Notes under the pieces: generated by a model | Told to the model about the DNA's origin: nothing | Seen by the model: the letters and a program-made list of their open reading frames with translations, nothing else | Database searches by the model: none | Source of the DNA: a virus | Direction: 5' to 3' (one strand) | DNA length: 20,142 nt | IMG/VR virus record: IMGVR_UViG_3300010153_000170 | Coordinates: 1 to 20,142 of that record | Shown here: positions 10,976-13,852 of the stretch, in pieces | Layout of the letters: each line of letters begins with the position of its first letter | Numbering within the stretch: the stretch's first letter is position 1 | Made by a program: the position numbers and the translations under genes

Positions 10976-11030
10976 AAGTAAGTAGGTAGTTGATGTACAG
11001 TCAGTAACAGTTTCAGTTAAGGGAATCCCA

Positions 11031-11060
11031 GTACTGTACTGTACTGTACTGTACTGTACT
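11031..11060. repeat. six perfect GTACT tandem copies (iteron-like)
   Basis: Six consecutive GTACT units without error. A related cluster at 11097-11124 contains AGTACTGTACTG (11113-11124), identical to the start of this array (11030-11041), and between them are single ACTGTA/ACTG words and the AT-rich stretch 11080-11098. The unit contains the self-complementary GTAC, so each copy is a small dyad. Confidence 0.9.
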
Positions 11061-11152
11061 ACTGTAATCTGTAATACTGAAATATATTAATATTATTGTA
11101 CTGTATTACTGTAGTACTGTACTGACCATTTTAAAAAATAAATTAAATTTGT
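11031..11152. other. candidate replication origin or terminase/initiator binding site
   Basis: Iteron-like GTACT/ACTGTA words (11031-11124) followed by a nearly pure A/T run (11129-11150) between divergently transcribed early and packaging modules. Iterons beside an AT-rich unwinding element is the classical origin layout, and the RepA-like ATPase in the left arm could be its partner. A pac/cos site for the adjacent terminase is the alternative. Inference from sequence layout only. Confidence 0.4.
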
Positions 11153-11162
11153 CAAGTTATTA

Positions 11163-11248
11163 GGGTCGGGCTAGCGATATTGAGCGTGTCATCTGGTGTA
11201 TTATGAAAAACTATATGTCTTGATTAGAGAAGAATACTTACCCGACCC
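11163..11248 (-). ncRNA. candidate small RNA bounded by an 8-bp terminal stem
   Basis: GGGTCGGG (11163-11170) and CCCGACCC (11241-11248) are perfectly complementary across 70 bases in an AT-rich region. On the minus strand a consensus TATAAT (11255-11260) ends six bases before the first G of the stem, with TGGACG (11277-11282) 16 bases upstream, so a transcript could start at the stem and close on itself. It lacks the T-loop of a tRNA. No T-run follows, so its 3' end is undefined. It may instead be a DNA site. Confidence 0.35.
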
Positions 11249-11263
11249 GCTTGGATTATACAC

Positions 11264-11308
11264 AAAAAAAAGAACTCGTCCAGTAAGAGCAGCAAACTAA
11301 ACGAGTTC
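11264..11308 (-). terminator. intrinsic terminator on the minus strand
   Basis: Read leftward: GAACTCGT, a 21-base loop, ACGAGTTC, then eight consecutive T. The 8-bp stem (11301-11308 with 11272-11279) is perfect and directly abuts the T-run (11264-11271). On the plus strand no T-run follows. The long loop is unusual. No minus-strand protein gene lies upstream, so it must end a non-coding or read-through transcript. Confidence 0.6.
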
Positions 11309-11339
11309 AATATGATTCATTGATACTGAGGAGGCATAA

Positions 11340-11387
11340 ATGAATATACGAAGGATAACATATTTTACAAGGAGAAATCCAGTTTAG
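11340..11387 (+). CDS. 15-codon leader ORF with ideal ribosome binding site
   Basis: GAGGAGG (11328-11334), five bases, then ATG and 14 further codons giving a basic peptide (MNIRRITYFTRRNPV) before TAG. It is the best ribosome binding site of the whole rightward arm, yet serves only this peptide. Its last codons run through the first strand of the nested stem at 11368-11375, so translating ribosomes would open that structure. This is the arrangement of a translational attenuator. Expression is not proven. Confidence 0.45.
   Translation: MNIRRITYFTRRNPV
11343..11370 (-). promoter_or_regulatory. candidate minus-strand promoter for an antisense small RNA
   Basis: TTGTAA (11365-11370) and TATATT (11343-11348) with a 16-base spacer. 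A transcript beginning near 11336 would end at the terminator at 11264, about 70 nt. Its first bases (GCCTCCTC) are complementary to the GAGGAGG (11328-11334) of the leader ORF on the plus strand. Box matches are moderate, so this is tentative. Confidence 0.35.
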
Positions 11388-11456
11388 TTCAGATCAGACT
11401 TTATTGGAGGTGGTCGAAGCGGAGACAGAGTACCGCAATCTGATTACCTCTCCTTG
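11368..11456 (+). promoter_or_regulatory. nested foldable leader before the packaging operon
   Basis: Three nested complementary pairs: CAAGGAGA (11368-11375) with TCTCCTTG (11449-11456); ATCAGA (11393-11398) with TCTGAT (11439-11444); GCGG (11419-11422) with CCGC (11433-11436). GGAGGT (11406-11411) can pair alternatively with ACCTC (11446-11450), which would break the outer stem, so a switch is conceivable. It ends 23 bases before the first rightward gene. No known riboswitch core recognised. Confidence 0.45.
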
Positions 11457-11479
11457 AGGGGTCATGCTACCATAGGGTT

Positions 11480-12001
11480 ATGCAAATGTTGTCGAAAATT
11501 TGTCCGAGATGTAAAAAACGTGCAAAAAAAGATTTAGATGGTTTTAGTTGTATTACATGTGGATGGACTGAATATATAATTAACAAAACTCCTAAAAGAG
11601 TTAGAGGTAGTGTTCCGTATATAGATAAGCACTATCTGCCGTATGGAGGAGTAGACCCGGAATACAGGCAAGCACAGACGTTACTTATAACTTTTCTGTA
11701 TCAAACAAAAAAGAATCTAGATAGGATTGCTTACTTTATGAACTGTCCTCTGGATGACTGTGATAAGTTGACGATTTCAAAGAAGTCTTGCGAATATTCT
11801 TTGCGAAAGCGGGATGAGAAGTACTTTCGTTTTCTTTGCAATGCTAAACATTTATGGTATCTTGTTGTGCTAAATGGCGAACCACTCTACTGGCTTAGTT
11901 GTGATCTGGAGGTTAGAATGCCAAAAGGTATTGGAACATACGGTACAAAAAGAGGACGTCCACCTAAGAAAAAGAAAATGAAAAATGGCAAGAAGTATTA
12001 A
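11480..12001 (+). CDS. zinc-ribbon and AT-hook DNA-binding protein preceding the terminase
   Basis: A 173-residue basic protein. C8-P-R-C11 and C24-I-T-C27 form a zinc ribbon; the middle (about 55-145) is mixed helical with further Cys and aromatic residues; the end, GTKRGRPPKKKKMKNGKK, contains a good AT-hook (RGRP) that would insert into the minor groove of AT-rich DNA. First gene of the rightward operon, ending directly against the terminase small subunit start. It could regulate the divergent region or help the terminase recognise packaging DNA; neither is shown. The start is uncertain: ATG at 11480 or at 11486, both with poor ribosome binding sites, so the structured leader may matter. 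Confidence 0.7.
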   Translation: MQMLSKICPRCKKRAKKDLDGFSCITCGWTEYIINKTPKRVRGSVPYIDKHYLPYGGVDPEYRQAQTLLITFLYQTKKNLDRIAYFMNCPLDDCDKLTISKKSCEYSLRKRDEKYFRFLCNAKHLWYLVVLNGEPLYWLSCDLEVRMPKGIGTYGTKRGRPPKKKKMKNGKKY

Positions 12002-12493
12002 ATGCCTCGTAAAAAAAAGACGGAGTACTCTCGCTCAATTGTAAAAGGGCAAGACCCAGAAGATGTTGTTCTGAGACAAGACTTGTTTCTTGAGTCTTAC
12101 TCTAGACTCGGTAGTATCCGTGCTGTCGTAGAGGAAATTAAAATTTCACGATCTACTTATTATGAATGGCAGAAAAATGATAAGTACGGTTTCGCTGAAA
12201 GATTTGAAACTGCTAAACATGAGTTCAGAGAAATGCTGCAGGATATGGCTGTTAATCGAGTTAAGGAGCAGAAAGCTAGTGCTAACCCTTTATTACTCAT
12301 TACCCTGCTGAATGCACACTGGTCTGAAAAATATAAACCACGAGATAGCGGAGCTGACGAGACTGCTAAAGAAACACTTAAAGAATTAAGAGATAAATTT
12401 AAATTTGTTACACGAACTGAAGAAGAAGTCGAAGACTCTAAAACAGCTCTGCAACAAGCTAAAGATGTAATCGAGGGCAAGAAATCTGATTAA
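12002..12493 (+). CDS. terS: terminase small subunit
   Basis: A 163-residue protein. After a basic N-terminus (MPRKKKTEYSRS), residues about 28-62 (LFLESYSRLGSIRAVVEEIK ... TYYEWQKND) form the helix-turn-helix of the phage terminase small-subunit homeodomain-like family, followed by FAERFETAKHEFREMLQDMA, the long helix that builds the oligomeric ring. The tail is an acidic coiled coil with Lys (ETAKETLKELRDKFKF onward), the likely contact to the large subunit. It recognises the packaging site and loads the motor. It begins immediately after the preceding TAA and ends three bases before the large-subunit GTG. Ribosome binding site weak. Confidence 0.85.
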   Translation: MPRKKKTEYSRSIVKGQDPEDVVLRQDLFLESYSRLGSIRAVVEEIKISRSTYYEWQKNDKYGFAERFETAKHEFREMLQDMAVNRVKEQKASANPLLLITLLNAHWSEKYKPRDSGADETAKETLKELRDKFKFVTRTEEEVEDSKTALQQAKDVIEGKKSD

Positions 12494-12496
12494 GAA

Positions 12497-13852
12497 GTGG
12501 CAACACAAACTCCTGTAATAGATGAAATAACTGACGCATTTTATGAAACGGTGGACTTCTCTCCTACCGATTTGCAGAAACCTATACTCGCTTCAAGGAA
12601 ACGTTTCGTACTCGTTGCAGGCGGTGAACAAGCGGGTAAGAGCATGGTAGCTTCTAAGTACCTCCTATCAAGATTTTTGGAATCGGATAAAGAAGGACTC
12701 TATTGGCTCGTTGCTGCTGACTACGAAAGAACCAGAGCTGAATTTGAATACCTAGTGCAAGACTTTGCTACGCTTGGATTACTTGATACAGCTTCTAAAC
12801 GTGTTGATCCCGGTAGAATCATTCTCGCTGATGGAACCAGAATAGAAACTAAGTCTGCTAAAGACCCAAGAACATTAGCAATGCGTGCGCCAGACGGTAT
12901 TATAGGGTGCGAGGCATCACAGCTAGACCTTGAAACCTTTCATAGATTGCGTGGTAGGTGCGCTCCTAAACGTGGTTGGATGTTTTTATCAGGTACCTTT
13001 GAAGGATCACTCGGATGGTATCCTCAAATGTTTCAGTCGTGGCAGCACTCCTCTTCAAAAGACGAACAATCGTTCTCTTTACCTAGCTATTCTAATCAGT
13101 ATCTTTATCCTGGAGGTAGAGATGATCCTGAAATTTTGGCACTGGAGAAGGCAAGCTCCGATGATTTCTTTATGGAGAGGATCGAGGGAATCCCATCACC
13201 ACCGAGCGGAATGGTGTTCTCTGAAATTAGACCAGATATTCATGTGCAAGATGTGGAGTATGTACCCGATGAACCAGTACATATCTGGATTGATCCTGGT
13301 TACTCAGAAGCATACGCCTGTGAAATAGTTCAAATTGTAAATGATCAGGTAAGAGTTATAGATGAAATTTATGAACGTGATCTGGTTACAGATGAAATGA
13401 TTGATATTGCACAATCTCGCCCTTGGTGGAAAGACGCAAGGTTTGGTGTAATTGATATTGCAGGATATCAGCATCAGGCTATGGCTGCACCAGCAGAAGT
13501 CTGGATGAACAGAACTGGTATTTATTTTGATTCACAAAAAATAAGAATTAATGAAGGAACAGAAAGATTGAAGTCTTTCTTGAAGACTGATCCTGTAAAT
13601 CAGAGAGAACCTCGCATTGTTTTTAATCCAAAATGCAAAGGTATCCTTTCTGAGTTCGGTGTGCAGCCAAATCCATTTGATGGACAAACCCGTGCGTACA
13701 GGTGGAAAATGGATCGTGATGGAAATGTAGTTGGCGAAACTCCGCAAGATCAGTATAATCATGGCGTTAAAGCTGTGATTTATGGACTTATAAATCGGTA
13801 CGGTTACGGCTATGTTACCGAAAGTAATACAATTAAAGTAAGGCGTTGGTAA
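12497..13852 (+). CDS. terL: terminase large subunit (ATPase and nuclease)
   Basis: A 451-residue packaging motor of usual length. Walker A is GGEQAGKS at 42-49. The Walker B strand reads GIIGCEASQ at 134-142, with the catalytic Glu (E139) but Cys138 where Asp is usual. SGTFEG at 165-170 is the coupling motif. The RNase H-fold nuclease starts at IWIDPGYS (D266), with a second acidic strand VIDIAG (D320) and a C-terminal NHGVKAVIYGLI helix. It cuts concatemeric DNA and drives it through the portal. The start is GTG, with no in-frame ATG that would keep the N-terminus and only a weak ribosome binding site. It overlaps the portal gene in TAATG fashion. Confidence 0.92.
   Translation: MATQTPVIDEITDAFYETVDFSPTDLQKPILASRKRFVLVAGGEQAGKSMVASKYLLSRFLESDKEGLYWLVAADYERTRAEFEYLVQDFATLGLLDTASKRVDPGRIILADGTRIETKSAKDPRTLAMRAPDGIIGCEASQLDLETFHRLRGRCAPKRGWMFLSGTFEGSLGWYPQMFQSWQHSSSKDEQSFSLPSYSNQYLYPGGRDDPEILALEKASSDDFFMERIEGIPSPPSGMVFSEIRPDIHVQDVEYVPDEPVHIWIDPGYSEAYACEIVQIVNDQVRVIDEIYERDLVTDEMIDIAQSRPWWKDARFGVIDIAGYQHQAMAAPAEVWMNRTGIYFDSQKIRINEGTERLKSFLKTDPVNQREPRIVFNPKCKGILSEFGVQPNPFDGQTRAYRWKMDRDGNVVGETPQDQYNHGVKAVIYGLINRYGYGYVTESNTIKVRRW

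Follow-up and report, generated by a model that had tools for sequence, protein, structure and literature searches.

A predicted pseudoknotted RNA kept by compensatory change at the head of a phage late operon

What kind of element stands directly before the packaging genes of this phage, and does it work as a switch? The window, which is the whole stretch of 20,142 bases analyzed here (IMG/VR record IMGVR_UViG_3300010153_000170), carries the element at positions 11368-11456, and its parts and the genes that follow it are on the plus strand. A preliminary description had read these 89 bases as a translational attenuator or riboswitch of the early-to-late transition, in which three nested pairings competed with a pairing of GGAGGT with ACCTC and the first strand overlapped a 15-codon leader ORF.

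Predicted fold and its compensatory changes

The 89-base core (11368-11456) had a folding energy of -31.8 kcal/mol vs. -19.85 ± 3.16 kcal/mol in dinucleotide shuffles (z = -3.78, 0/200 shuffles as stable). Because this excess fell to z = -1.5 once about 45 nt of flank were added on each side, we took the 89-nt core as the structure. The three pairings first described were all located in it: 8 bp between CAAGGAGA (11368-11375) and TCTCCTTG (11449-11456), which form the outer closing stem P1, 4 bp between GCGG (11419-11422) and CCGC (11433-11436), which form P3, and 6 bp between TCAGAT (11389-11394) and ATCTGA (11438-11443). Moreover, CCAG (11379-11382) pairs with TTGG (11404-11407) as P2, a helix absent from the preliminary description, and since this pairing crosses the 6-bp one, the whole fold is a pseudoknot, in which P1 encloses hairpin P2, the inner helix P4 and hairpin P3, and TCAGAT in the P2 loop pairs with the strand 3' of P3. 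The bases GGAGGT (11406-11411) and ACCTC (11446-11450) can indeed pair, but they do not compete with the stems: they correspond to P4 (GGT at 11409-11411, consensus CGGT, with ACC at 11446-11448, preceded by a nearly invariant TT), which is compatible with the rest of the fold. P1, P2, P3, P4 and the pseudoknot can thus all coexist in a single structure, and covariation was seen for none of the alternative pairings, so that the proposed switching is not supported. The conserved unpaired bases are WTTAGY in the P2 loop (TTTAGT at 11383-11388, with TTAG in 95-100% of lineages per position), TA before the P2 3' strand, GGTCGA in J2 between P4 and P3, the P3 apical loop (AGACAGAGTA at 11423-11432, family consensus AGGCAG) and TT before P4 in J3.

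Relatives were gathered by the terminase large subunit (TerL) as 80 viral-contig loci, and upstream of the first late gene, g1, the closest of them as a set had little in common beyond the element and the bases to just past the g1 start. When six relatives were aligned with MAFFT, standard pairs made up 98% of pair cells and 7 pairs were changed on both sides, pseudoknot included, vs. 40-53% and 0-1 pairs when the partners were slid by 1-3 columns in the same alignment. Across 28 lineages, 26/29 pairs were changed on both sides, with pairing in 92% of cells, in an alignment that was set by hand on the helices and so leans towards the structure fitted (one pseudoknot-strand base of L050 was omitted as a bulge). 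The 24 curated follow-up strings were identical letter for letter to their loci. When 3' strands were dealt among 24 lineages, pairing fell from 95% to 64% in P1, from 98% to 79% in P2, from 98% to 54% in P3 and from 92% to 62% in the pseudoknot, and the mean folding z across 24 lineages was -2.4. The strands themselves were diverse, with 13 distinct 5' strands of P1 and 15 distinct strand pairs of P3 in 24 lineages, and 19 distinct 5' strands of the pseudoknot. Among the lineages we found GCGTGCAG/CTGCACGC, GGTGGAAA/TTTCCACC and GGGGAGAG/CTCTCCCC in P1, CCAG/CTGG, CTGG/CCAG, ACGA/TCGT and GCAG/CTGC in P2, CGGT/ACCG, CGT/ACG and CGGA/TCCG in P4, and TCAGAT/ATCTGA, ACAAGA/TCTTGT, CGGGGA/TCCCCG, CTAGAGC/GCTCTAG and CCGGGAT/ATCCCGG in the pseudoknot. 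A pseudoknot test with automatic windows and no hand fitting gave 4.82 vs. 3.35 ± 0.17, with the window misplaced in one lineage group. Inspected by eye, neither a pairing of the TTAG loop with the tail motif that follows P1 nor a hairpin of the tail showed covariation. Compensatory changes and folding energy beyond that of shuffles, the general marks of conserved structured RNA and the two checks named in the preliminary description, were both found; judged by these comparisons, the element is a conserved structured RNA.

Distribution and genomic setting

A covariance model built from six relatives without the pseudoknot gave 47 matches (44 distinct) in nearly all related contigs with enough upstream sequence; 38 distinct sequences lay beyond the six used for training, and most scored 17-60 bits. 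The matches reached much less similar loci and were located on the terminase strand, immediately before either g1 or the terminase genes. By our own count over the search tables, the element was present in 56/69 loci with TerL identity of at least 80%, and most of the other 13 contigs start too near the terminase genes to contain it. L026, L064 and L067 retain 0.5-0.9 kb before the gene of the terminase small subunit (terS), yet had no covariance-model match. Among the 11 loci whose TerL is 71-73% identical, none matched (0/11), and L071, L074 and L079 had no match with filters off either. Exactly one copy was present in 9/10 records, and the tenth contig starts downstream of the site. Comparison of these loci shows a predicted RNA fold of about 90 nt that is kept by compensatory change, in single copy and at a fixed place.

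When viral contigs and, in a single scan, bacterial and archaeal genomes were searched for the pattern, the element came up in this phage clade only, other matches being due to chance. Rfam 15 (4227 families) was searched with this region of the window and with seven divergent relatives; only chance matches below the families' gathering scores came up, none of them over the element, and no tRNA or tmRNA was found. The titles and abstracts returned by a literature keyword search named no such element. Cultured relatives had TerL identity of about 26% at best, and none was found for the gene after TerL. The fold is new to the catalogue, but as a structured phage leader RNA it is of a known kind. 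The late operon of a clade for which we found no cultured member is headed by a strongly covarying pseudoknotted RNA with no catalogued relative, which offers a ready family for structure work and a direct way to test how such phages start or sustain late expression.

The tail motif, a palindromic, -10-like sequence (ATGCTACCAT at 11464-11473, consensus ATGNTANCAT), was present in 22/22 lineages, including near-matches in L065, L029 and L056, and lay 5-7 nt after P1 in 21/22 (13 nt in L031). Its distance was constant to P1, not to the start codon, and was independent of the identity of the first gene. In the window this gene is g1 (11486-12001, alternative start 11480), which encodes 171-173 aa with a CxxC zinc-ribbon-like N-terminus. 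The poor ribosome binding site ascribed to it at first was borne out, being weak here and with a good Shine-Dalgarno sequence mostly absent in relatives; the next genes have GGAGGT sites, and g1 starts about 6-7 nt after ATGNTANCAT. The g1 product had no Pfam or PHROG match, resembled S27ae-type zinc ribbons weakly (E = 0.017) and gave a modest predicted structure (pLDDT 69) with no fold match. It is followed by terS (12002-12493, PHROG 4044, E = 5.6e-6) and the TerL gene (12497-13852, PHROG 2, E = 2.6e-20).

In G003, a 35-kb relative, the element stands at the start of a block of about 20.6 kb, from the terminase onwards, in which almost every gene is on the same strand, and opposite-strand genes lie behind it. 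The element is retained though the first gene differs, which is mostly g1 and in L040, L018 and L065 a small basic-protein gene with its own Shine-Dalgarno sequence; it is therefore separated from any one gene, which points to the transcript as the target. The small basic protein (about 33-40 aa, MPKVGKKKFPYTKAGMAKAKK...) has a strong GGAGGT site and is too small for the ORF lists used, and its gene lies between g1 (or the RNA) and terS in L236, L042, L039, L017, L013, L040 and others. Terminator-like sites were not enriched in the late block, and therefore the sequence does not demand antitermination.

Upstream of the element, a second conserved feature is an inverted repeat (11163-11170 and 11241-11248) with arms of 6-10 bp that covary among relatives (GGGTCGGG/CCCGACCC, GGGCTGGG/CCCAGCCC, GAATGGTG/CACCATTC, GGGAACGG/CCGTTCCC, GGCTAATGG/CCATTAGCC). 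It ends 4-9 nt from a box ATTRTAY (11255-11264), which on the minus strand reads as a TAYAAT -10, so that the repeat may form a stem-loop at the 5' end of a leftward early transcript. Between the element and the box lies a terminator-like hairpin on the minus strand (11263-11308, GAACTCGT..ACGAGTTC and then a T-run), and a similar hairpin with an A-run was seen by eye in L010, L042, L216, L228, L235 and L239. Farther upstream are low-complexity CTGTA/TACTG repeats (11020-11130). Several relatives have G-rich tracts (GGGGGGATAATAGGGGGGAGGG) upstream of the element, where contigs seem to break.

Possible roles of the element

A regulatory role, as proposed at the outset, is reasonable for a structured RNA before packaging genes because the element heads a long late block and g1 mostly lacks a good Shine-Dalgarno sequence, and a part in the early-to-late transition is compatible with its position. 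The specific proposal of an attenuator coupled to the leader ORF, in which GGAGGT/ACCTC would compete with the nested stems, did not hold up and is now very improbable. The 15-codon ORF is real (11340-11387, with a strong Shine-Dalgarno sequence, GAGGAGG, at 11328-11334) and overlaps P1 and P2, and L235 and L016 have similar leader ORFs with the stop inside the P2 loop. However, it lies outside the conserved parts of the element and is itself not conserved: an ORF preceded by a Shine-Dalgarno sequence and running to or into the element was found in 13/32 lineages, with frames, lengths and stops all differing, and was absent from 19/32, and in other lineages a conserved -10-like box 4-10 nt before P1 leaves it no room. 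A Shine-Dalgarno/anti-Shine-Dalgarno logic fails likewise, since the Shine-Dalgarno-like CAAGGAGA of P1 is replaced by GGTGGAAA, GCGTGCAG or GTGAGAGG in other lineages. Neither a conserved overlapping leader ORF nor mutually exclusive conserved pairings, which would mark a leader-peptide attenuator, were present.

Least credible of all is that the conservation reflects a coding region or a site in the DNA (pac, operator) instead of RNA structure, even though one frame is open across the element in the window, L008, L057 and others and the palindromic tail motif is near the terminase genes; a DNA site would not be expected to show covariation in P2 and the pseudoknot, two helices that cross. 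Protein coding was rejected, as no frame is open in every lineage (15, 13 and 0 of 26 for the three frames) and indels of 2 and 7 nt between close relatives break the frame. Nor do we expect a self-cleaving ribozyme that would process the late transcript: the small pseudoknotted fold and conserved junctions would suit one, but no Rfam ribozyme family matched, and HDV-like and pistol topologies were rejected by their strand order, which we take to differ from that of the element. The constant place beside the terminase genes, the compact pseudoknotted fold and the single copy could also be those of a trans-acting RNA, for instance a structural part of the packaging motor with a role like that of phi29 pRNA. 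This too is improbable, as Rfam, including the pRNA family, gave no match, relatives with TerL 71-73% identical do without the element, and the spacing to the tail and first gene, being short and constant, suggests action in cis. A 5' stability or processing element is somewhat easier to accept, though unlikely.

The next most likely explanation after the put-like action set out below is a translational operator or riboswitch, in which a phage protein (e.g. the zinc-ribbon g1 product) or a metabolite would bind the pseudoknot and set the translation of the first late gene, much as in the autoregulation of T4 gene 32. It is possible, if doubtful: the start of g1 about 6-7 nt after the tail motif, its mostly absent Shine-Dalgarno sequence, the CxxC pairs of its product, and the conserved unpaired P2 loop, J2 (GGTCGA), P3 loop (AGGCAG) and J3 (TT), which resemble a binding site, all speak for it. 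On the other hand, L040, L018 and L065 keep the element without g1, the next gene's own Shine-Dalgarno sequence being about 25-30 nt or more beyond, no alternative pairing that would hide the start was seen to covary, and the g1 product has no recognized fold.

We consider it probable that the element is a compact RNA of about 90 nt, that it belongs to the leader of the late packaging/structural transcript and that it acts in cis; the leading candidate for its mechanism is an operon-wide one like that of put in phage HK022. There, putL and putR encode antiterminator RNAs of about 70 nt with two stem-loops, which lie downstream of phage promoters and act in cis on the early operons, and putL includes a -10-like sequence that presumably makes the polymerase pause (PMC9378689). 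Three features favour operon-wide action: the great length of the operon that the element heads, the element's indifference to which gene comes first, and the -10-like motif at a constant distance after it. Put-like antitermination is accordingly our first, though tentative, choice of mechanism, by analogy: the RNA would fold as it emerges, perhaps while the polymerase pauses at the tail motif ATGNTANCAT, and would stay with or modify the polymerase, leading to read-through of the late block of about 20 kb. By the same analogy with putL, a polymerase paused at the tail motif would have just released the RNA. Against this explanation as a whole, the start site and cis action in a late-operon leader are inferred from sequence, no rightward promoter was identified and the conserved ATTRTAY box is more readily taken for a leftward -10; late-block terminators are not enriched, the fold is unlike that of put, and the g1 start about 6-7 nt after the tail motif could equally indicate translation control. 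Further, the element might be a pseudoknotted late-operon counterpart of put, that is, a new polymerase-modifying or late-switch RNA serving as an RNA-only late regulator clade-wide, which is a speculative proposal by analogy and rather unlikely as a whole. If true, the -10-like pause motif sits at the point where the RNA has only just cleared the polymerase, and late expression in these phages is possibly run by an RNA element instead of a dedicated activator protein.

Comparison with known systems

Like phi29 pRNA, the element is a phage RNA with a three-way junction, but its link to packaging is one of position only, its length and topology differ, Rfam gave no pRNA match, and nothing was found that supports action in trans. 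The 5' leader of T4 gene 32 is a pseudoknot in a phage mRNA that serves autoregulation; the element is likewise a predicted 5' leader pseudoknot, while fold and gene differ. It shares with the riboswitch classes of Rfam a compact pseudoknotted leader and conserved unpaired nucleotides, though it matched no class. The closest comparison is with HK022 put, a structured phage RNA of similar size at an operon head, which acts in cis as proposed for the element and has a -10-like sequence comparable to the tail motif. The two differ in architecture and place, since put consists of two adjacent stem-loops forming a V with no enclosing stem, whereas P1 encloses all other helices of the element and its pseudoknot crosses P2; the element belongs to a late operon, and its -10-like motif follows the RNA, while that of put lies inside.
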